From Hydrogenimonas cancrithermarum (lineage in GTDB: Bacteria > Campylobacterota > Campylobacteria > Campylobacterales > Hydrogenimonadaceae), in contig NZ_AP027370.1 in NCBI RefSeq assembly GCF_030296055.1, forward strand, positions 558,001 to 622,000: a stretch of DNA of 64,000 bases. The letters run 5' to 3'. Positions 44,000-55,162 of this stretch are shown here, one piece after another; position 1 is the first letter of the stretch, and each line of letters begins with the position of its first letter. The translations under genes and the position numbers were made by a program. The notes beneath the pieces were generated by a model. The model did not search any database. It saw nothing but the letters and a program-made list of their open reading frames with translations, and was not told where the DNA came from.

Positions 44000-44794
44000 A
44001 TGAAGTCACTTTTCGCACTCTTCGGCAATCCCGTCCACCACTCCAAATCGCCGCTGATGCACAACCTGGCGTTTCAAAAACTGGGATACGACGGCTGCTA
44101 TACACGGTGGCTTCTAAAAGAGGGTGCCAGGCTGCGGGAAACTTTTCTCGCGCTCGACCTCAAAGGGGCCAACATCACGGTCCCCCATAAAGAGGCAGCC
44201 TTCGAAGCGGCCGATATCGTCGAAGATTTCGCCGCCGAAGTCCGCGCCGTCAATACCCTCGTCCTGAAAGAGGGCAAACTTTACGGCTACAACACCGACG
44301 CCCCCGGCTTCTACCGCGCCCTTCAAAAACTCGGAGAGGTCAAAACCGCTCTCATCATGGGTGCCGGCGGCACGGCACGTGCCCTCTCCCTCTACCTGCG
44401 AAGTCAAGGCATCGACGTCGAGGTCGTCAACCGTTCGGCAGGCCGGCTTGAGTGGTTCAAAGCGGAGGGGTTTGTCTGCCACACCTGGGAGGGGTTCGAC
44501 GCGACACCCAAAGATGTCGTCATCAACACCACCTCCGCCGGCCTCGAAGACAATAGCCTTCCAATGCCCAAAGCGCTGCTCGACGCCGCTCTCGCACAGG
44601 CCAAATACGCCGTCGACGTCATCTACGGCAAAGAGACGCCGTTTCTCGAAGAGGCGAAAAGACTGAATCTTCCCCATTTCGACGGTTCGGAGATGCTCCT
44701 GCAGCAAGGCATCATCGCATTCGACTACTTCACCGACCACCGCTACACACTCGACGAGATCGAAAAGGCGATGCGGCCGTTTTTGAATCTCTAA
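44000..44794 (+). CDS. aroE: Shikimate dehydrogenase
   Basis: 264 residues. Substrate site GNPVHHSKSPLMHN at the N-terminus, GANITVPHKEAAFEAAD with the catalytic lysine, the NADP loop MGAGGTARAL and the end motif GSEMLLQQGIIAFDYFT. It reduces dehydroshikimate in the aromatic pathway, linked to the DAHP synthase and trpE nearby. A GGAG ribosome binding site precedes ATG. It converges with recR, with a 4-base overlap. Confidence 0.95.
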   Translation: MKSLFALFGNPVHHSKSPLMHNLAFQKLGYDGCYTRWLLKEGARLRETFLALDLKGANITVPHKEAAFEAADIVEDFAAEVRAVNTLVLKEGKLYGYNTDAPGFYRALQKLGEVKTALIMGAGGTARALSLYLRSQGIDVEVVNRSAGRLEWFKAEGFVCHTWEGFDATPKDVVINTTSAGLEDNSLPMPKALLDAALAQAKYAVDVIYGKETPFLEEAKRLNLPHFDGSEMLLQQGIIAFDYFTDHRYTLDEIEKAMRPFLNL

Positions 44795-45360
44795 ACCTTC
44801 ACCCGGTCCTGCAGGGCACGTGACAGCGAAAGCATATCGATGTTTTCGAGGCTCACTCCGGTCGGTACGCCCTGTGCGATCTTCGTAAAGACCAGATCGT
44901 AATCTTTGAGCTTCTCTTCGATGAAAAGAATCATCGCATCGGTGGCGATACTCGGCGTAAAGGCGAAGATCACCTCTTCTACCCCCTCTTCGATGCGGTC
45001 GGTCAGCTTCCCGCCATCGAGATGCTCCACCGATGCGATGACGAAGTAGGTGCCGTCGTAATCTCCACCCGCTTCGATCTGCAGAATATCCTTCGCGTGC
45101 TCGACGATGCAGAGTTTGGAGTGGTCGCGCGTAATGTCCGCACAGACGGGACAGAGCTCGTCTTCGCTCATGGCACCGCACCGTTCGCACTGCTGAATGT
45201 CTTGTACCGCCTTCTCGATCGCATGGGCGATCTTCATCGCGCCGAAGTGGTCGTCCATCACCATATGGTAGGCCATTCGCTGTGCCGATTTCTTCCCGAT
45301 GGAAGGCAGCGCCTCCAGGGCGTCGACAAGGTTTTCGAAACTCTCTATCTTGTTTTTCAT
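44791..45360 (-). CDS. recR: Recombination protein RecR
   Basis: 189 residues. Helix-hairpin-helix (LEALPSIGKKSAQRMAYHM), zinc finger CERCGAMSEDELCPVC and a Toprim domain (CIVEHAKDILQIEAGG) in the standard order. RecR acts with RecO and RecF in single-strand gap repair. The -10 box TAAAAT ends only seven bases before the ATG and no ribosome binding site is seen, so the message may be leaderless. Immediately upstream lies the scarred accessory region. Confidence 0.95.
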   Translation of the reverse strand: MKNKIESFENLVDALEALPSIGKKSAQRMAYHMVMDDHFGAMKIAHAIEKAVQDIQQCERCGAMSEDELCPVCADITRDHSKLCIVEHAKDILQIEAGGDYDGTYFVIASVEHLDGGKLTDRIEEGVEEVIFAFTPSIATDAMILFIEEKLKDYDLVFTKIAQGVPTGVSLENIDMLSLSRALQDRVKV

Positions 45361-45363
45361 ACC

Positions 45364-45379
45364 CGCGATTTTACCCTAA
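45364..45379 (-). promoter_or_regulatory. recR promoter, identical to the rpsF promoter core
   Basis: TTAGGGTAAAATCGCG on the minus strand, the same 16 bases as at 27136-27151. The -10 box is at 45368-45373. Transcription would start at or next to the recR start codon. Confidence 0.55.
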
Positions 45380-45429
45380 AAACGGCTGATTTCCCAGTCG
45401 TGTCTCTCCATCTTTTCTTTTTGAAAACC

Positions 45430-45555
45430 TTTCCCCTCTCCACTCGAAAATCCAAGGGACTCTTGATTTCTCCACGACCCAGTTCACGAACGACATTGGG
45501 TATAGATCATCGTCGTTTCGAGGTTTTTGTGCCCGAGCAGTTCTTAAATATGTTC
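45430..45555 (-). pseudogene. Remnant of an integron-integrase-like tyrosine recombinase (C-terminus)
   Basis: Read on the minus strand, this stretch encodes ELLGHKNLETTMIYT directly after a stop codon (TAA at 45544-45546), then, after a +1 shift (an extra A in ACCCAATGTC), HVVRELGRGEIKSPLDFRVE. This is the conserved C-terminal block of IntI-like tyrosine recombinases, with the LLGH box, the catalytic Tyr in MIYTH and the SPLD ending. Nothing upstream of the LLGH box is present; it is fused to a truncated membrane-fusion gene. It is a dead remnant that marks an old recombination event. Confidence 0.75.
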
Positions 45556-45750
45556 CATAGTCGCCTCGACTACCCCGCTTGCATGTGTTTCTATGGGAAT
45601 GTCGGCGGCTTTTGGTTTGACAACACTCACTTTGACGTGACGCTGTGCTTTGGGCACCTGCAATGTTTTGGCGACCGTATCTTCATCCTCCTCAAAAAAA
45701 GCAAAAAGCATACTGTAGAGCAGGAGTATCAAGAGAATGGATCTATTCAT
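45544..45750 (-). pseudogene. Truncated membrane-fusion (periplasmic adaptor) protein
   Basis: 68 residues: signal peptide/membrane helix (MNRSILLILLLYSMLFAFFE), then VKVSVVKPKAADIPIETHASGVVEA, the first beta strand of an RND/HlyD-type adaptor. The frame then runs into integrase-derived sequence (TMEHI) and stops. The lipoyl, hairpin and barrel domains are missing, as is any pump gene after it. It overlaps tolC by 8 bases, so it was once the next gene of that operon. Confidence 0.75.
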
Positions 45751-46939
45751 AGATTGCTCCCGAGCTAAGCATGTTGAGAATCAAGATATTTTTTTGTTTC
45801 ATTATGGCTACCTCGATACTTTTCTCCCGGAGGGCAAGATATGATTGAAATGCCTGAAGATAACTATTGAAATCGGTATAGTGCTTGAGGTATGCCGTTT
45901 TGATGCTTTTAAGCGTGGACTTGGCCTGACGAAGGGCAGGTTCTAGTATCTTGGCCTGTTTTTCAGCACTGCGGATCGATCCAAGATAGTTCAGATAATG
46001 TTCTGAAACTTCTATTTTTGCGGCTATGGCCTGGCTTTTGCTTCGAATGGCGTGGACTCTTGCCGCTTCCGCTTTTTTGCCAATACCAGCATCCAACGAA
46101 ATATGCACACCCGCAAAAACCGAATAGTTGTCACCATTAGCTGTTGGATCGCTGTTTTGCTGATATGCAGTACCTACAATCGCCTCCGGCAGCCAACTCT
46201 TTTGGATCGCTTCGGCCTCTTTTTGTGCCAATTCACTTTCTACATATTTGAGACGAAGTGAAGTTGCATGAAGCAAAAAGCCATTCATGTCCGCTTGCAA
46301 TCTCTCAACTTTCAGTGAGGGTATTGTCCGTTTTGGCACATAGAGTTTCAGGCGTGCACCCATTGTTTCCAGCATCGTCTGCTCGTCAATAATCTTGGCG
46401 TGAAAAAGAGACAATGTGTTGGCAAACCGTTCGCTTTCGATCTTTGGCATGGCACCGGCATTGACCGCCTTTTTGAGTTGTTTTAAAACAGACTCCTGCT
46501 CATGGTATAGCTTGCGATGCAGCTGCAGCACTTCGCGTGTACGGTGCCATGAAGCGATCATTTCGATCAGGGAAAGAAAAAGCTGTCTTTTTTGGCTCTC
46601 AAGCAGATAACGGTTCTGCTTGGCTTGTAGACGAATTTTTTCAATTGCAATGCCACTTTTGTTGAAAATATCGATGGTGTCGCTCAGAGAAATGTCAGTG
46701 GTGTTAAACCGTTTTGGGAGCAAATCGGCCTTGGTGTCCGTATAGAAGGCATCTACCGAAAACGAGGTGAAGCGGTTGATCTTCTTGGCAGATATTCCTA
46801 GCTGCTGTTGTTGCTCGATCATCTGAAGTTGACGGTCCATCTGCAGCCGTTTTTGCGCTGCTTTGATGTAGTCCAGAACAGCATTAGACGCCATGAGTAT
46901 CGCTGAAAATGTTGCCAAAAGCATAAGCTGCCTAATCAT
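45743..46939 (-). CDS. TolC-family outer membrane efflux protein
   Basis: 398 residues with a signal peptide (1-18) and long helical repeats typical of outer-membrane efflux proteins (RTREVLQLHRKLYHEQESVLKQ; LRLKYVESELAQKEAEAIQKSWLPE). TolC trimers form the outer-membrane duct for RND, ABC or MFS pumps. The gene appears intact, but its adaptor partner is truncated and its pump is lost; it could now serve the divergent ABC exporter. It follows the small lipoprotein gene after 82 bases. Confidence 0.88.
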   Translation of the reverse strand: MIRQLMLLATFSAILMASNAVLDYIKAAQKRLQMDRQLQMIEQQQQLGISAKKINRFTSFSVDAFYTDTKADLLPKRFNTTDISLSDTIDIFNKSGIAIEKIRLQAKQNRYLLESQKRQLFLSLIEMIASWHRTREVLQLHRKLYHEQESVLKQLKKAVNAGAMPKIESERFANTLSLFHAKIIDEQTMLETMGARLKLYVPKRTIPSLKVERLQADMNGFLLHATSLRLKYVESELAQKEAEAIQKSWLPEAIVGTAYQQNSDPTANGDNYSVFAGVHISLDAGIGKKAEAARVHAIRSKSQAIAAKIEVSEHYLNYLGSIRSAEKQAKILEPALRQAKSTLKSIKTAYLKHYTDFNSYLQAFQSYLALREKSIEVAIMKQKNILILNMLSSGAIYE

Positions 46940-47021
46940 GCCGCCTCCACATCATCGATGAGTGAATCGGAGCCCGCCCAAGGAATCATAGAAAACCATC
47001 TTCTCAACGATAAATACTTCA

Positions 47022-47234
47022 TTATTGCGATTCCAGGCGCTCTTCTTCCTCTTCTTGCATACGCAAAATGAAACGTGGACTCTGCCAAAGCTCCCCTTCA
47101 TGAGCTTCTTCTTGCCGGTGGTTTTCTTTTTTTGCAGCTTGGGAAGGAGGGATATCCGCGGTTGATGAACAGCCGGCAATGCAAAAGAGCAGGAAAGAGG
47201 CTATGTAGAAAAAGGGTACTCTTGAGGACATCAA
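47022..47234 (-). CDS. Tiny lipoprotein in the TolC operon
   Basis: 70 residues. The signal ends with the lipobox IAGC (Cys22); the mature part of about 48 residues is hydrophilic and rich in Glu and Gln (KKENHRQEEAHEGELW; LRMQEEEEERLES). The ATG overlaps the PepSY stop by 4 bases. I do not recognise a family; its place between PepSY and TolC suggests an envelope role with them. Confidence 0.65.
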   Translation of the reverse strand: MMSSRVPFFYIASFLLFCIAGCSSTADIPPSQAAKKENHRQEEAHEGELWQSPRFILRMQEEEEERLESQ

Positions 47235-47551
47235 TCCTCCTCTTCCATTTCAAGAATCTTTCCCGTTATCGGATCGATCAGGAGTTTCTTTTCTCGGCCG
47301 TCGGGTGTAAGGATTTCGATTTTATAAACCAGGTAATCATCCTCTTCATCCAATTTGGCTTTTATGACCTGGCCGGGTGCTTTTGTTTTCGCCGTTTTTA
47401 TGGCCTGAATCATCGAGATCCGTACCTTTTTAATGACAGATTTTTCGGATTTGAAAAATGGAATTTTGATACTGCCATGCAGTTCATCGCAAAATGCACC
47501 ATTCGCACCGAGAGTAGCAAGAATTACCACCATGGAAAGTTTTGTTTTCAC
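47231..47551 (-). CDS. Exported PepSY-domain protein
   Basis: 106 residues, GTG start with AGGAG six bases upstream. A signal peptide (about 1-21) is followed by a single PepSY domain (SMIQAIKTAKTKAPGQVIKA; VYKIEILTPDGREKKLLIDP; TGKILEMEEED). Small PepSY proteins often accompany CusS/CusR-type two-component genes. It is 98 bases downstream of the sensor kinase and 4-base coupled to the lipoprotein gene. Confidence 0.88.
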   Translation of the reverse strand: MKTKLSMVVILATLGANGAFCDELHGSIKIPFFKSEKSVIKKVRISMIQAIKTAKTKAPGQVIKAKLDEEDDYLVYKIEILTPDGREKKLLIDPITGKILEMEEED

Positions 47552-47649
47552 TGTCGCTCCTCTTGTTTGGGATTTACAGTGATTCTAAGAGATCAAAATG
47601 ATGGAGAAATGAAAAGAGTATGAAAGATTTTTAATTATTTGTACAGGAT

Positions 47650-49014
47650 TTATTGAGAAAAACGAATAACGAATTCACTTCCCTCTTCGCCACTTGTTAC
47701 GTAGATGTTCCCATTATGCAGCTGTGCTATCCAACGGGCAATTGAAAGCCCCAGTCCAGAGCCGGATGTTGTAGTTTCCCATTTCTTTTCAATCCGATAG
47801 AAAGGTTCAAAAATTTTCTCCTTCAAGTTTTCGGGTATTCCCGGGCCCTGGTCTACGATCTTGAGCTCGACACCCTTTCTTGTTTTTTGAAGTACAACCT
47901 TGATCACACTGCCGTCAGGAGAAAATTTGACAGCGTTATCCAGGAGGTTGACAATGGCTCGGCGCAACAGCGTGGGCTCTGCATCGACGGTCACCTTGTC
48001 GCATCGTAATTCGAATTCGATGTTTTTGGCTACCGCCGAAGGTCGCATCTGATCGATGGCTTCACCCACCAATTTGTCTAGCGAAACCAACCTGAACCGC
48101 TTTTTCAATGCCCTGGTGTCTGACTTGCTCAGCAGCAGCATCGTCTCGATTATCGACTGAAGCTTGTCGGTCTCTTCCAGCACGCTGTGCAACACTTCGG
48201 CGTACTCCTTTGAGCTGCGTTCACGTATCAGTGCCACGTCGATTTCACCGCGAATGATCGTAAGGGGCGTTTTGAGCTCATGGGAGACGCTGGCATTGAA
48301 ACGCCGTGCCTGGTTGAATGCATTTTCGAGTCGATCCAGCATCGTGTTGAACGTGTAGGCCAGTTCGAAAAACTCATCTTTTTCTTTTGGAAGTTCTATC
48401 CGCTTGGAGAGATTGCTCTGGGAAATGGTTGCTGCCGTTTCTGTTATGTTGCGCATTGGGGAGAGAACACGTTCGATGGCTCTGTATCCCAAGTAGAGTG
48501 CGACCAGAAAGATGACAAATCCAAAAAATACCAGTAATGCAGTAAAAGTTTCGAGTGTATCATCGATTTTATTGATTGGTACAGCCACTTTGATCAGATA
48601 ATCGATTCCATTTTTTTGCGCACGGTAGACAAGCAGACCCGATTCGTCTTCTTTGCTTACGAAGGGGATCTCTTCAATATAAAATCCAGGATCCGAATGC
48701 CCAAATCGGTGGTCCTGCATATTTTTCGTGAATAGTATTCGTTCGGGCTTGCCTGCTGTAAAGCGATAAACTTCTATAGAAACGGGGGAGAGAGGAAACT
48801 CCTCTTTCGGATCGATCACAGAACTTTTTTGTTGCGGATGGGCGAGTTCGTCATTTTTCAGATCCAGGGCAATACTTTCCAGCGAACTGTGCAAAGAGTT
48901 TTCAAAACTCAGGTTAAGTCCCGTATAAAAGAGTATGCCCAGAAACAGGAGCACCACTCCCAGCAAAACCGCATACCCTTTCAGAAGCCTTCCCGAAGCA
49001 CTTTGGGCACGCAT
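47650..49014 (-). CDS. Sensor histidine kinase (CusS/heavy-metal type layout)
   Basis: 454 residues: membrane helix 13-34, periplasmic domain of about 120 residues, membrane helix about 158-182, HAMP, then HisKA with the phospho-His in SVSHELKTPLTIIRGE and HATPase with NLLDNAVKFSPDGS, DQGPGIPE and GSGLGLSIA. The periplasmic sensor has no Cys or Met/His-rich metal-binding cluster that I can see, so a metal signal is only suggested by architecture. It follows the response regulator after 4 bases. Confidence 0.92.
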   Translation of the reverse strand: MRAQSASGRLLKGYAVLLGVVLLFLGILFYTGLNLSFENSLHSSLESIALDLKNDELAHPQQKSSVIDPKEEFPLSPVSIEVYRFTAGKPERILFTKNMQDHRFGHSDPGFYIEEIPFVSKEDESGLLVYRAQKNGIDYLIKVAVPINKIDDTLETFTALLVFFGFVIFLVALYLGYRAIERVLSPMRNITETAATISQSNLSKRIELPKEKDEFFELAYTFNTMLDRLENAFNQARRFNASVSHELKTPLTIIRGEIDVALIRERSSKEYAEVLHSVLEETDKLQSIIETMLLLSKSDTRALKKRFRLVSLDKLVGEAIDQMRPSAVAKNIEFELRCDKVTVDAEPTLLRRAIVNLLDNAVKFSPDGSVIKVVLQKTRKGVELKIVDQGPGIPENLKEKIFEPFYRIEKKWETTTSGSGLGLSIARWIAQLHNGNIYVTSGEEGSEFVIRFSQ

Positions 49015-49018
49015 CTTC

Positions 49019-49690
49019 TTATCTGTCCTTGATTTTATAGCCCGATCCTCGAACCGTCTCGATCAATTTTTCCTCGAAAGGTTTGTCGATTTTGTTGCGC
49101 AGATGATAGATAGTGACATTGACCACATTACTTTCGATACGCTCCTGTGTGCCCCAGATGTTATCGAGTATCGTGGTATGAGTGACCACGTGCCCCTTGC
49201 GGCGCAACAGCAGCTCCAGCAATTCGAACTCTTTGATCCCCAGCTCGATCACCTGGTCCCCCCGTCGGACTTCACGTTTCAAGGGGTCCAGTACCAGATC
49301 GCCCGTCTGAAGTAGATTGGATCCCCCATAACCGTTGCGCCGATGCAATGCCCGCAGACGGGCAACCAGTTCGCTGAACGCAAAAGGTTTCCCAAGGTAA
49401 TCATCGGCACCACTTTGCAGGCCTTCCACACGATCTTCCACCTCCGAACGTGCCGTCAGCATCAACACAGGAGATATATTGCCATCCCTGCGCATTCGCT
49501 CAACAACCTCGGGACCGCTGATACCAGGCAGCATCCAGTCGACCACCACGACATCGTAGTGATTGACCTGAGCCATATAAAGTCCCTCTTCGCCGTCTGC
49601 AGCCCGTTCGACTCGCATTCTCTCTTCCTTGAGGCCGCGTTCTATGAATGAGGCGATCTTTTCGTCATCTTCGATCAGTAAGATTTTCAT
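49019..49690 (-). CDS. OmpR-family response regulator
   Basis: 223 residues. Receiver domain with acidic pocket IEDDE and phospho-Asp in VVVVDWMLPG, then a winged helix with SNVVNVTIYHLRNKID and ETVRGSGYKIKD. I chose ATG 49690 (MKILLIEDD). It is the first gene of the minus-strand operon and likely controls it and perhaps the divergent ABC operon, through the palindrome between them. Confidence 0.93.
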   Translation of the reverse strand: MKILLIEDDEKIASFIERGLKEERMRVERAADGEEGLYMAQVNHYDVVVVDWMLPGISGPEVVERMRRDGNISPVLMLTARSEVEDRVEGLQSGADDYLGKPFAFSELVARLRALHRRNGYGGSNLLQTGDLVLDPLKREVRRGDQVIELGIKEFELLELLLRRKGHVVTHTTILDNIWGTQERIESNVVNVTIYHLRNKIDKPFEEKLIETVRGSGYKIKDR

Positions 49691-49732
49691 AAGAACTATT
49701 GTAGCGTACCACCATGACAATATGATAAAGTG

Positions 49733-49754
49733 GAGATGAAAATTTTTTCATCTC
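49733..49754. promoter_or_regulatory. 22-bp perfect palindrome between the regulator and ABC exporter operons
   Basis: Arms GAGATGAAAA (49733-49742) and TTTTCATCTC (49745-49754) around a TT centre. It lies in the divergent promoter region, 43 bases from the response regulator start and 42 bases from the ABC ATPase start. It fits an operator for the adjacent regulator; a terminator role is less likely here. Confidence 0.5.
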
Positions 49755-49795
49755 TTTTTCATAGATATCTCATTTATGTCCGAGATAATCGCATT

Positions 49796-50527
49796 ATGAT
49801 TACTGGAAAAGATGCCAGTGTTGCAGGCTTTGCCGTCCACTGCAGGAATATCACGAAAACATATGGTAAGGGTAGTGCAAAAGTCCATGCATTGAGAGGG
49901 GTCGACCTGGACATCAGAAAAGGTGAAATGATGATAATCGCAGGGCCTTCCGGATGCGGAAAGACGACATTCGTCTCCATCATTTCCACATTATTGGAGC
50001 CAGACAGCGGCACCTGCAGAGTGTTTGGACGGGACGTATTTCACTTTTCCAAAGAACAGAAAATCCTTTACCGGCGGCAAACGATCGGTTTTGTTTTCCA
50101 GGCTTTCAATCTGCTTCCCGCATTGACCGCACAGGAAAATGCGGCCCTTCCACTGCTCATCAAAGGTGTGGAACGGAAAAAAGCGATGAGATTGGCGGCC
50201 GAAACGTTGAGAGATGTAGGCTTGAGTGTCCGCCACAATGCTCTGCCATCGCAGATGAGTGGTGGAGAAAAACAACGCGTTGCCGTCGCCAGAGCGCTGA
50301 TCCATAATCCTCGACTTGTCGTATGTGACGAACCGACAAGCAACCTCGACCATGTAACCGGACAGAAAATCATGGAACTCCTGCAGGGTTTGGCCCGGAC
50401 GCACGGCACTACACTGCTTGTCGTGACGCACGATAACCGAATATACAACTATGCGGACCGGATCGCCCACATGGATGATGGAAGAATCATGGATATTGAA
50501 ATAATCAAAAGCAGAGATTTTTCATGA
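49796..50527 (+). CDS. ABC exporter ATPase (LolD/MacB/DevA type)
   Basis: 243 residues from ATG 49796; an upstream in-frame ATG at 49730 would cover the palindrome and lacks a ribosome binding site. Walker A GPSGCGKTT, Q-loop, signature SQMSGGEKQRVAVARAL and Walker B RLVVCDEPTSNLD are all intact. It powers the adjacent FtsX-type permease. It overlaps the membrane-fusion gene by 4 bases. The ATPase-adaptor-permease set resembles DevBCA/MacAB exporters. Confidence 0.93.
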   Translation: MITGKDASVAGFAVHCRNITKTYGKGSAKVHALRGVDLDIRKGEMMIIAGPSGCGKTTFVSIISTLLEPDSGTCRVFGRDVFHFSKEQKILYRRQTIGFVFQAFNLLPALTAQENAALPLLIKGVERKKAMRLAAETLRDVGLSVRHNALPSQMSGGEKQRVAVARALIHNPRLVVCDEPTSNLDHVTGQKIMELLQGLARTHGTTLLVVTHDNRIYNYADRIAHMDDGRIMDIEIIKSRDFS

Positions 50528-51423
50528 AGCGTCTTTATCTGATTGTCGCAATCGCTATGTTGGGACTGGTATTCACCGGATTGCTTGTCTATAAAGATTC
50601 CGCCCCTTTGCGCGGTCGAAGCAAGCCTATCCCGACCTGGCATCCACCCTTTGCTTCGTTTGTGGCTGGGACCGGTATCGTTGAAGCATCTTCTACCAAT
50701 ATTTCTGTCGGTTCGCCAGTATCGGGTATCGTGGAAAAGCTCTATGTCAAACCAGGCAGTTTGGTGAGGCGTGGAGAACCACTTTTTAAACTTGATGATA
50801 GAAAATTAAGAGCAAAACTTCCTCTTCTGGAATCCGAGGTAACCGCGGCCAAAAGTGAAATGAAAAAATATCGTGATATTTTTGAAATCGATGAAAAACT
50901 CTATCGAGAGGCCCCGGGTACTATCAGCCAAAAAGATTATGAAATCTCACGAAACAACTATCGTCACGCCATGGATCTTTGGAAAAAGGCAAAGGCAAAT
51001 TTGAAGGTATTAAAAGATGAGATTGCTCTTTATACAGTCATGTCGCCCATTAAAGGGAGAGTGCTTCAGTGCAGAATGCGGGAGGGAACCTACATGCAAG
51101 CCTCTGGCGGTATTCCGCCGCTACTGATACTAGGAAGCCGTGATCTTCATCTACGCGTTGAAGTCGATGAGTATGAGGCATGGCGCATCAAAGCAAAGGC
51201 CAAAGCCGTAGCCTTTGTTCGTGGCCATCCGGACATGAAACTTACGCTGAAATACCTCTACACTGAACCATTAATAGTTCCCAAGTCCATTATTCAGGAA
51301 AGGCCGACGGAGCGGACAGACACACGGGTTTTGCAGGTCATCTATCGTTTCGAACATCCGGATTTTCCCATCTACCCGGGTCAAACGCTGGACGTATTTA
51401 TCGAAACGGCAGGGAATAGCTGA
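50524..51423 (+). CDS. Membrane-fusion protein of the ABC exporter (HlyD family)
   Basis: 299 residues. One N-terminal membrane helix (about 5-23), a split biotinyl-lipoyl domain (VGSPVSGIVEKLYVKPGSLV; then YTVMSPIKGRVLQCRMREG), a helical hairpin between them (about 90-165) and a C-terminal barrel. It bridges the inner-membrane permease and an outer-membrane channel such as TolC. It is coupled to the ATPase (4-base overlap) and abuts the permease gene. Codons here look more A/T-rich than in backbone genes. Confidence 0.9.
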   Translation: MKRLYLIVAIAMLGLVFTGLLVYKDSAPLRGRSKPIPTWHPPFASFVAGTGIVEASSTNISVGSPVSGIVEKLYVKPGSLVRRGEPLFKLDDRKLRAKLPLLESEVTAAKSEMKKYRDIFEIDEKLYREAPGTISQKDYEISRNNYRHAMDLWKKAKANLKVLKDEIALYTVMSPIKGRVLQCRMREGTYMQASGGIPPLLILGSRDLHLRVEVDEYEAWRIKAKAKAVAFVRGHPDMKLTLKYLYTEPLIVPKSIIQERPTERTDTRVLQVIYRFEHPDFPIYPGQTLDVFIETAGNS

Positions 51424-52623
51424 ATGTTTCGGATTGCGATTCAGATGCTTTTGGCGGATAGAGCCAAGTTTTACGGATTGCTTTTTGGCATCTCTTTTAC
51501 CGCATTTCTGGTCAGTTTTGCCCTGTCATACTTTGCGGGCTTCATGACTCGCGGGTTTGCGCTGATCTCCGAAAATCCTACCGCAAATGTCTGGGTGATG
51601 GATCCTGCCGTCCGTTCTACGGAGATGACGATCAATCTGAGCGATTCCACACTGGATCGCGTCAAGAGTGTTGCCGGCGTCAATTATGCTGTCCCGCTGG
51701 CAATCAAGGATGCGGAAGTCCGTTTTCCAAACGGTCATTTCCAGCGCTTTCAGTTTATCGGGGTTGACGATGCAACTTTGGTCGGGGTGCCCAAATTTTT
51801 GGATAACACACCCGTTTCGTTGCTGCACATACCCGATGCGGTTTCCGTCGATCCGGGAGGCACGGAAGGCAAATTGCTTACGCCGCGGTTTAAAAAGGAT
51901 CAATGGCCGTATGACGGTGTCCACCTGGGAGTGCCTATGCGCCCTCTGCAACCGAGGGATGAGCTGCTTGTTAACGATCATCGGATTGTTGTCACCGGCC
52001 TGTCAAAAACGATTCCTCGTTTTCCTCCCAGGCCGCTTTTGTATACAACGCTTTCAAACCTCAAACTAATTTTCCCGGGTGAAAGCCGTATCATAACTTT
52101 TATTCTCGTCTCAGTATCCAAAGATCTCCCTCCCCGAGTGTTGGCCAGGCGAATTGAAAAGGAAACGGGGCTGCGTGCCCGAAGCAGTGAGGATTTCAAA
52201 ATCGATACACTCCGGTGGTATTTGGTGAATTCGGAAGATGTGGGAGACATGACGGCCATGTTGATTTTGGCTATGGTGGTGGGTTTCGGTGTCACAGGTA
52301 TCATGCTCTACATGTTTACAATTGAAAATATCCGGCAATATGCAGTGCTGACCGCTCTTGGCACTTCGGATGAAACACTCCTGGAAATGGTGTTTGTCCA
52401 GGCAGCAGTTGTGGCCTTGCTGGGTGCTGCGATAGGGATAGGTGCTTGTGCGTTTACCGATATGGCGATGAAACTGGCAGGAATCGATTATCCATTTCGT
52501 CTAATGTTGTGGGCGCCCATCATTGGAGTTTTAGGTGTCTTGACTGTCAGCTTCACTGCGGCAATCCTGAGTATCCGGCCCGTATTGAAACTGGACCCGG
52601 GTATCGTGTTTTCTGGCAGATAA
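51424..52623 (+). CDS. ABC exporter permease (FtsX/DevC-like)
   Basis: 399 residues, four membrane helices: one at 18-42, then a large periplasmic domain (about 45-270), then three near the C-terminus (about 280-300, 322-350, 360-385). This is the MacB/FtsX/DevC fold. The substrate is unknown; DevC-type systems export glycolipids, MacB-type export peptides, enterotoxin or macrolides. The start directly follows the adaptor stop. Its stop overlaps a further ATG (TAATG). Confidence 0.9.
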   Translation: MFRIAIQMLLADRAKFYGLLFGISFTAFLVSFALSYFAGFMTRGFALISENPTANVWVMDPAVRSTEMTINLSDSTLDRVKSVAGVNYAVPLAIKDAEVRFPNGHFQRFQFIGVDDATLVGVPKFLDNTPVSLLHIPDAVSVDPGGTEGKLLTPRFKKDQWPYDGVHLGVPMRPLQPRDELLVNDHRIVVTGLSKTIPRFPPRPLLYTTLSNLKLIFPGESRIITFILVSVSKDLPPRVLARRIEKETGLRARSSEDFKIDTLRWYLVNSEDVGDMTAMLILAMVVGFGVTGIMLYMFTIENIRQYAVLTALGTSDETLLEMVFVQAAVVALLGAAIGIGACAFTDMAMKLAGIDYPFRLMLWAPIIGVLGVLTVSFTAAILSIRPVLKLDPGIVFSGR

Positions 52624-52901
52624 TGTATGTTGAAAATTTGAAACACAGTTTTGTAAGAGAGAAAAACTCATCATGTTTTTGGACGAAAGCGTATAGATCG
52701 TTGTGGTGTCGACACAATAGAGAGCAGATTAGATTTATTGATTTCGACAACCAGGTCAAAGTGCAAATTTCGAAAAGATCAAAACTCAAAAGTTGGCTGG
52801 ATGGTTTGTTTTTTTCCTTTGCTTTTTTGCGAATTCACCGGGGCTGTGGAATGAATATTTTCATGACCTTTGAGCATATTGTTTTTACACTTCTCCTCTA
52901 G
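52623..52901 (+). CDS. Doubtful 92-residue frame after the permease
   Basis: The ATG overlaps the permease stop (TAATG), a classic coupling signal. The first residues MYVENLKHSF resemble the start of an ABC ATPase, but the remainder (from about residue 15) has no ATPase motif and looks like random, A/T-rich coding. It may be a disrupted gene whose body was lost when the nitrilase region joined it. The stretch 52902-52960 shows nothing recognisable. Confidence 0.3.
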   Translation: MYVENLKHSFVREKNSSCFWTKAYRSLWCRHNREQIRFIDFDNQVKVQISKRSKLKSWLDGLFFSFAFLRIHRGCGMNIFMTFEHIVFTLLL

Positions 52902-52959
52902 CGTGGGGGCGTAAATCCATTCAACGAAAGCACCGGTTTGTACTTTTTCCAACTTCTGA

Positions 52960-53454
52960 CATCTAATTGGCAAAAGGCGGCAAAGAAAGGTGCGCATCTG
53001 GCTCTCTTCCCCGAAGTATTCGTTCCCGGCTATCCCGACTGGATCTGGCATCTCTCCCCCGGTAAGATCGCATTTCAGCAGGAACTTTATGCAAGATTGC
53101 TGGAACAATCCGTGATCGTAGGCAGTCCGCAAACAGACCGCCTTTGCAAAGCCGCCAAAGATGCCGGGATCTATGTAGTGATAGGCATCAACGAAAAAAT
53201 GCGGACACGGGCGGCGGAAGTATCCACGATACGTTGCTCTTCATCGATTCCGATGGGCGCCTGTTCGGCCGGCACCAAAAGCTCATCCCAACCGCACCGG
53301 AGCGGACGATATGGCGACACTTCTCGCCGAGATCGACCTGCACAAACTTCGTGCCACCAAGTGGAACCTCGATGTCACAGGACATTATGCCCGCCCGGAC
53401 GCAGTTGAACTGGTTGTACATCGCAACGTTTCAACAAAACCCGAGAGAAAGTGA
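52960..53454 (+). pseudogene. Decayed nitrilase (carbon-nitrogen hydrolase)
   Basis: Three frames together read as a nitrilase. Frame 1 (to about 53200) has NWQKAAKKGAHLALFPEVFV with the catalytic Glu, and [16 protein letters not shown] one-base loss in an A run (53194-53199) shifts to [16 protein letters not shown] and [14 protein letters not shown] with the catalytic Lys. A deletion near 53310 then jumps to the C-terminal [18 protein letters not shown] and [15 protein letters not shown], ending at 53454. The segment with the catalytic Cys (CWENYMPL-type) is absent and the 5' start is missing, so it is non-functional. Confidence 0.82.
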
Positions 53455-53461
53455 GCTCATA

Positions 53462-55162
53462 TCAGATTTTGAAACAACTGCGCTCCAAGTAGATGATCGC
53501 TTCCCTGAAGGGAAAGGCTTCCTGGCATTGTAGGTATTCGACGATGCTTCGGTCGTGTGCCGTACCCGATGCCAGAAGGCGGCCGATAAAATAGCTTTTT
53601 TCATCCTCGTGTTCCATACCTTCCGGAAGCAGGAGGTCGTTCTCTTTCAGCACATGACGGCGGTAGTGGTTCAGCAGTAGCCAGAAGGCGAGTGCGGGTT
53701 CGCTGTAGCGGTTCAGGATCTCTTTCGAGAAATCCTCGAAGTCCCTGTAGCCGCTTTGGGCGAAGAGGTCGGCGATCAGGTCGATCATCGCGTTCAGGTG
53801 GCGCATCGGAACCGAATAGAGTATGAGCCGTGCCGCTCTTTTACCGTGAGTGTACTCCGAACCGAGGTAGAGGCGCACGCCACGCTCCACCTCTTCGGCG
53901 AAAAGCTTGGTCCGGATGCCGACGAGGCCGATATCGCTGAAAGCGTGGCGGGCGCACCCTTTCAGGCACCCGCTGAAGCCGAGAGAGATACCGAGCCTTC
54001 GGCACTTTTCCAGAGCGAGCGTGTCACTCTCTTTTTTTGTATCCATCAGAGAGTAGACGCAGTATTTCGAACCGGCACAGGCGACGATACCGCCATAGCG
54101 CTCCGTACTCTTCGCAAACGCCACCTTTTCCGGCAAACCGGGAATGTAGAAATTCTGGTCACAGCCTATACGAAGTTCTTTCACCCCGTACGTTCCACAC
54201 AGATGCAGTATCTCGTCGAACTGATCGAAAGAGAGCTCACCGAAACGGGTCGTGTACCGGTGGGCGAAGGTCCCGTTTTTCAGCGCCGTACGCGTTTCTA
54301 ACGGGGCTTTTTCAATAAGCAATTCTCCGGCCGACGGCAGCGTTTTGCCAAGACGTTCGGCGATCTTCGCCCTCAACCCGTCGATGCCGACGGCTTCGAT
54401 CATATGAAACAACCGCGCTTTCGAGCGGCTCGCCCTGGGGCCCTCCTCCCGGTAGACCTCCGCCACCGCCCTAAAAAGTACCGGCACTTGTGAAGCTTCG
54501 GCGAAAATATCGAGTGAGCGTGCCGTTTCCGAGTTTTTACCGCCCGCGTAGAGGTTGAACCCTACTCTGCCATCTTTTCTCGCCAACGCGAAATAGAGGT
54601 CGTTCCCGAAAAAGGAGGTGCGCTGCTTTTTCGTACCGCTGATCGCGACGTTGAATTTCCGGGGAATCATCCCCACGTAGTCGGGATTTTTCAAAAAGTA
54701 TCGCTGCATGGCGAGCACGAGGTCGTAGACCTCCACGAGATTCGCCGCCTCCAGCCCATCGAGAGGGTCGGTGACGATGTTTCGGAAATTGTCGCTGTAG
54801 GTCTGCCACGATGTGAGGCCGAAGCTCTCGATCCGGTGCGACATCCGCAGAGCCGACGGAAAGTCGAGACCGTGTACCTCCAGCTGCGCCCGCGAGGTCA
54901 CGATGATCTTTCCGCCGGCAGTGCAAGCCAGGTCCCGCACACCTTTCAGGGCCGCCGTGGCGATTCGTCCCGCCGGAATGCGGATACGGAGGGTGAAAGT
55001 CTCCGGTGCCAGTTTGTGGTTGTAGATACCGAAATTCTTCAGATAGAAGCGATCGGCTTCATCCAGCGCTTCCGCATGGATGAACGGAAGTTTTTCAAAA
55101 AAGTCGGCCGGCTTCATCTGTCGTTTCAGTTTTTCGATTTTGTTGATTTTCTGTTCTTTCAT
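53462..55162 (-). CDS. Siroheme nitrite/sulfite reductase
   Basis: 566 residues of the ferredoxin-nitrite / sulfite reductase beta family. Two ferredoxin-like repeats surround the siroheme domain; the 4Fe-4S/siroheme cysteines are Cys362 and Cys368 (ACAGSKYC) and Cys399 and Cys403 ([10 protein letters not shown]). Six-electron reduction of nitrite to ammonia or sulfite to sulfide is expected; the sequence alone does not decide between them. GGAGAG precedes the ATG. The C-terminal 70 residues are an extension. It lies between the nitrilase remnant and dnaJ (divergent). Confidence 0.88.

Follow-up and report, generated by a model that had tools for sequence, protein, structure and literature searches.

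The question raised by this locus is whether a short piece of minus-strand sequence beside recR is what remains of an integron integrase gene and, if so, how it came to lie there. The window, by which we mean the whole stretch of 64,000 nucleotides of Hydrogenimonas cancrithermarum DNA that was analysed, had been predicted from its letters to carry at this point the C-terminal scar of an IntI-like recombinase, hinting either at an integrase-mediated insertion or at an integron that once stood here. Since such intI wrecks are common among the relatives (see below), the tail is an ordinary integron fossil, and this reading is well supported. A possible integron sighting is thereby settled as a fossil, and the tail changes nothing about function.

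Identity of the integrase tail

What remains is the end of an integron integrase (IntI) gene, approximately its last 34 codons out of some 321, read in two frames. Minus-strand positions 45543-45499 translate as ELLGHKNLETTMIYT, and positions 45497-45447, one base out of frame, as NVVRELGRGEIKSPLDF. The second block sequence had been predicted to begin with H (HVV); its first residue is N (NVV), while the rest of it is present. When a panel of 15 IntI proteins was compared with the whole window by tblastn, every one of them found its best match in the tail region. For seven proteins the program combined the two frames (summed E 6.9e-7 to 6.6e-6), eight matched one frame alone (E 1.7e-4 to 1e-3), and outside the tail the panel gave matches of E 0.057 or worse. 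The two-frame IntI-like block is therefore where it had been predicted, and the recombinase matches that had been proposed as a check were obtained in both frames. At the DNA level the tail matched 10 of the 30 intI genes in a small local set (E 9e-9 to 7e-4), with identities of 75-81% over 49-70 bases and in one case 96% over 23 bases. A profile of 14 IntI proteins recovered the tail from the whole host genome at E 9e-4, the match covering profile residues 285-307 and containing one TAA.

A tail of this length might also derive from another tyrosine recombinase, of the Xer or phage type. The XerC and XerA models do match the stitched tail (E 7.5e-5 and 1e-4), although more weakly than TIGR02249 (E 3.3e-6), and the Pfam match of the tail lies below its cut-off (17 versus 27.1 bits). 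However, the two integron models alone align to 31 of the 32 residues of the stitched tail, the C-terminal block of the IntI family is present with its end ..VVKEL....SPLDF in the alignments, and at the DNA level it is intI genes that the tail resembles, which makes a source outside the IntI family highly improbable. The tail is confirmed as the remnant of a Campylobacterota integron integrase gene.

The stop codon and frame shift that were thought to have killed the gene are both real. The TAA, at 45546-45544, stands directly before ELLGH in a position that reads IQE in all 29 relatives extending that far; the thirtieth relative listed (L077) is itself cut short before this position. The frame change amounts to one base extra relative to all 15 aligned intI genes. 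A full-length open gene with all catalytic residues is absent. The stretch that precedes the HxxRH block (..ETKWQY.FP...DPRSG..RRHH..), which we take to be an IntI-specific addition, is kept in 14 aligned relatives and deleted in the window; its deletion means that there can be no working IntI, while the status of the tail as a remnant is unaffected. The tail (GC 44%) encodes no working recombinase.

A dead chimera at the end of an accessory block

The tail was expected to survive alone, joined to a foreign gene, and this is what we observe. A 68-codon open reading frame follows the outer-membrane efflux protein (OEP) gene and ends at the TAA that lies within the intI remnant (Table 1). It aligns with the starts of HlyD-type proteins that adjoin OEP genes, as illustrated by HVKVSVVKPKAADIPIETHASGVVEATM of the window against HVKVSVVEPKKAELPIEVKVRGIVEAEM of the related genome G016. 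The membrane-fusion homology ends at about codon 65 and the intI homology starts within a few bases, near 45550, which bears out the predicted deletion or recombination at the tail. In G016 the same operon extends through a complete membrane-fusion gene into an RND pump gene that is likewise complete (PF00873), and reading of the flanks placed a membrane-fusion homologue beside OEP in 5 of the 17 non-host OEP genomes; G015, the genome closest in cargo, is without the membrane-fusion/RND pair. Nothing in the host matched the G016 membrane-fusion protein at E<=1e-5, a weak negative since the query also missed the window's own truncated head at the same threshold, and the host RND paralogues are 20-26% identical, none being closer.

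In G016 (L117 5443-12234) the intact OEP/membrane-fusion/RND operon adjoins a tyrosine-recombinase-like gene (L117 11134-12234) that weakly matches the IntI query, and the operon may therefore travel on a mobile element.

We propose, with a probability of roughly 0.8, that one illegitimate deletion joined the efflux membrane-fusion gene to intI and left the tail as a dead fossil. Such a non-homologous deletion would have fused membrane-fusion codon ~65 to intI codon ~288 (of ~321 in total), removing the rest of the efflux operon, including any RND gene, together with about nine tenths of intI and most of its catalytic residues. Since attI and the cassette promoter would sit 5' of intI, in the deleted part, attI and any cassettes would have been lost in the same deletion. 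The point decay (stop and frame change) could have come before or after the deletion, which itself may have taken place here or before the block arrived. We infer the singleness of the deletion, the loss of the RND gene and cassettes in it, and its timing relative to the arrival of the block; since the window is silent on what lay between the two pieces, the RND and cassette losses rest on the relatives. Alternatively, there may have been two accidents, with a loose intI fragment inserted or translocated and the efflux gene cut independently. The window sequence does not separate one event from two, and intI fragments of many sizes are scattered in genomes of the order, but the two homologies meet so closely that a single joining event is the simplest account, and we consider two accidents unlikely.

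The chimera of intI tail and efflux head, both dead, lies at one end of an accessory block of approximately 8 kb (about 45397-53461), the tail being at the recR end. These limits were drawn because the block genes are missing at recR in 14 same-genus neighbourhoods; the queries were OEP, PepSY, kinase, regulator, second membrane-fusion, FtsX and nitrilase, and the ABC query matches in the genus are 28-29% paralogues located elsewhere. The GC content of the block is 47% versus 52% for the window. When compared with the regions 3' of 15 intI genes, the roughly 50 bases between the end of intI and the native DNA upstream of recR did not align clearly. The closest models to the sensor kinase are those of heavy-metal sensors, below cut-off (TIGR01386, 265.5 versus 292.55 bits). 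At the far end, the broken nitrilase-like gene, whose related residues go on in other frames as judged by eye, abuts the reductase gene. Relatives of seven block genes, at 48-70% identity, are found together on one G015 contig.

Table 1. Features in and beside the accessory block, in window coordinates
Feature	Positions	Strand	Evidence and remarks
recR, native neighbour	44791..45360	-	TIGR00615, 183.9 bits, cut-off 162.55
Native DNA upstream of recR	45361..45396	-	common to G013, 87% identity up to 45396
About 50 bases between intI end and native recR upstream DNA	45397..45446	not assigned	
intI C-terminal remnant	45447..45549	-	TAA and one-base shift; integrase panel, DNA, TIGR02249 and profile matches
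Truncated efflux membrane-fusion gene head, ~65 codons	45544..45750	-	aligned with HlyD-type OEP neighbours, five genomes
Outer-membrane efflux protein (OEP) gene, reading frame complete	45743..46939	-	PF02321, E 1.1e-14
PepSY-domain protein	47231..47551	-	PF03413, E 1.2e-15
Sensor histidine kinase	47650..49014	-	HATPase_c, HisKA, HAMP
Response regulator	49019..49720	-	PF00072, PF00486
ABC exporter: ATPase, second membrane-fusion protein, FtsX-type permease	49730..52623	+	PF00005, PF16576/PF13437, PF02687
Broken nitrilase-like gene, far block end	52938..53408	+	PF00795, first 87 of 156 residues, E 3.3e-9
Nitrite/sulfite-reductase-like gene, native, outside block	53462..55162	-	PF01077, PF03460; same place in relatives

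The region upstream of recR is a variable spot in the genus, with or without the reductase gene, with 1.0-1.4 kb of other DNA, or with the 8-kb block. The reductase gene lies about 11-116 bp upstream of recR in 7 of the 14 neighbourhoods (one of these, G013, was judged by eye from sequence at a contig start), dnaJ is next to recR in four, and 1.0 and 1.4 kb of other DNA precede the reductase gene in two (G001 and G011). In the remaining one (G004) the contig ends 1.4 kb from recR, and the recR query had no match in three further genomes of the genus.

Source integron family and the origin of the block

The tail derives from a genuine integron integrase family. A relative of the G001 integrase was found at E<=1e-30 in 75 of 398 sampled genomes of the order, the query being a 226-residue C-terminal part of that protein. 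Thirteen aligned proteins share 70-86% identity with the first sequence in the alignment, and the stretch described above precedes the ..FRHSYATH.. block in all of them. When named genomes were scanned, 456 relatives were obtained, and among the 80 that were kept 78 are titled Campylobacterota and two just "bacterium"; this set overlaps the order sample (L093 and L122 are 100% alike). In one of these loci, L169, the 5' side of intI has irregularly spaced repeats of ~66-73 bases with the shape of attC sites. A covariance model was built from seven L169 repeats of one array and later widened to 44 sites. It replaced two hand-written attC scans, which were left unused because they were too strict on the inner arms and found little or nothing above shuffles even in the attC-bearing L169 and L127. 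Across 44 sources the seven-repeat model found 59 matches at E<=0.1, a few of the weaker ones being the opposite strand of a listed site; 46 of the 59 reached E<=1e-3 and came from 19 sources. Every one of the 46 is located 5' of intI, on the cassette side, and oriented away from the gene; seven of them are training copies from L169, and 39 lie outside the training set. The other 25 sources, the window included, had no attC match at E<=1e-3. Since the family has attC arrays in the canonical orientation, the tail comes from a real integron integrase. In 40 of the 80 named loci the contig breaks off on the 5' side of intI, no more than 500 bases away, as compared with three loci in which it does so on the 3' side. 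First cassettes that are mixed within populations would produce such 5' breaks, which would fit active integrons.

The attC of these Campylobacterota is about 66 bases long and has a common form, with ATAACAAAACG...CGTTAT ends and a central CAATA../..TATTG stem; it was found in L169 751-9112 and at other loci. The genomes with OEP relatives often also have intI (12 of 17 non-host genomes versus 75 of 398 overall), a link that we dropped because the OEP and intI genes are on separate contigs or, in G133 and G156, at distances of 220 and 364 kb, and because few genera are involved.

The integron origin that had been suspected therefore holds for the gene, which belongs to an IntI family with attC arrays; as for the site, no intI was present at recR in any relative's recR neighbourhood that was read. 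An integron may have stood at recR, or the chimera may have formed elsewhere and arrived with the block. It had been suggested to look for attC sites downstream of recR, which is the wrong direction. Since the tail lies 5' of recR, the cassette side of a lost integron would be at coordinates above 45550.

It had further been suggested that the block came by integrase-mediated insertion, that is, that an integrase placed the whole block at recR. The remnant is indeed at the very edge of the block, and an attC-model match at chance level (E 2, 53431-53472) covers the opposite border. However, this is one of six chance-level matches in the 43-56 kb region with filters off (E 1.4 to 8.1), none of them better than E 1.4. 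Direct repeats or att sites at both block ends were not found: the ends share no repeat of 14 bases or more, and their longest common word, of 8 bases, is at shuffle level (reached in 29 of 500 shuffles), one copy of it sitting inside the reductase gene. The organisation of the block genes, in multi-gene operons on both strands, does not resemble that of cassettes, and the known substrates of IntI are attC cassettes rather than islands. An insertion of the block by an integrase is accordingly very hard to credit. In the host genome there was no attC at E<=1 (covariance model R2, with up to 150 candidates scored per genome) and no IntI besides the tail in IntI searches that included the 14-protein profile, and a plasmid collection queried with the tail region gave no match.

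A second lone C-terminal stub of a tyrosine recombinase lies elsewhere in the host (L005 1453-1656, contig C1, about 771.6 kb). It has 67-82 aa, matches PF00589 at E 6.3e-7 and is of non-IntI type.

Integrase remnants among relatives

Remnants of intI, counted apart from ordinary recombinase genes, were found with the IntI profile in 8 of 18 genomes of the genus, and an intact gene in none of the 18, several of which are drafts. The tail in the host is one of the eight. The intI of G001 is full length but carries one stop; G015 retains residues 2-208 together with a stub of 22 residues, G009 retains residues 2-163, interrupted by a stop, and a second piece, and G005 has residues 2-91 plus a piece at a contig end. 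Shorter remnants are present in G016 (residues 6-65, three stops), G012 (23-57, two stops, E 3e-6) and G017 (41-71, a weak match at E 9e-5, about 1.4 kb from an attC). Sites of attC were found in 7 of the 18 genomes with model R2 (best E per genome 2.3e-5 or better, again with up to 150 candidates scored in each); one match (G001:C1:317419) was in the R2 training set as L037:17419, and G001 has two more. For comparison, a second genus has a full-length open intI in 12 of 41 genomes, counted by eye as matches from residue 2 or 3 to 322 without a stop (G408, at 41-322, was left out), and fragments are common there too. The contrast of 0 of 18 with 12 of 41 gives p 0.012 with kinship and draft quality ignored, and it leans upward because the second genus was picked after it had been seen to be rich in intI. 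In a comparison with other genomes of the order (0 of 18 versus 48 of 380, counted by eye as open frames of 310 aa or more, without a stop and with a match reaching residue 225) the difference is not significant (p 0.15, kinship and drafts ignored). We suggest only tentatively that integrons are being lost from the genus as a whole lineage, with a different intI wreck in each genome, attC relics, and the window as the last stage; the odds are somewhat against it. If this were true, the genus would offer a natural series for watching integron death.

In the accessible text of PMC8618304, Campylobacterota are among the phyla with integrons, and a proposal is reported that CALINs are left behind when intI is lost through mutation, insertion or deletion. 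The integron-bearing vent microbes in Table 1 of PMC10295459, as far as it was available, include Sulfurimonas autotrophica (In0 and CALIN) and Sulfurovum sp. NBC37-1. The main text of PMC9024848 has no word starting with "Campylobacter" or "Epsilon", and PMC9668308 has none starting with "Campylobacter". In the portions of the literature covered, Campylobacterota integrons get brief mention, and a search of a collection with few subscription journals returned no paper on the tail remnant or the ~66-base attC form. The present follow-up has provided a set of attC-bearing integrons that can be modelled and searched, from genomes labelled Sulfurimonas, Sulfurovum, Arcobacter, Sulfurospirillum and other Campylobacterota, with the ~66-base attC in common.

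The remnants in the seven genus genomes G001, G005, G009, G012, G015, G016 and G017 are broken intI genes like that of the window, some of them near attC, but what survives in them is N-terminal or full-length and lies at other loci, whereas the window keeps the C-terminal end alone. In three C-terminal stubs of the other genus (G412:C146, G429:C18 and G406:C5, with residues 287-322, 280-322 and 252-322) only the last 36-71 profile residues are left, as in the tail-only remnant of the window; none of the three is known to be fused to an efflux gene. The integrons of the Campylobacterota A1 family (e.g. L169, Sulfurimonas sp. N3M-Bin_6) have a C-terminus that is nearly letter for letter the same as that of the tail; they possess a whole intI together with attC, whereas the window has ~34 broken codons and no attC.
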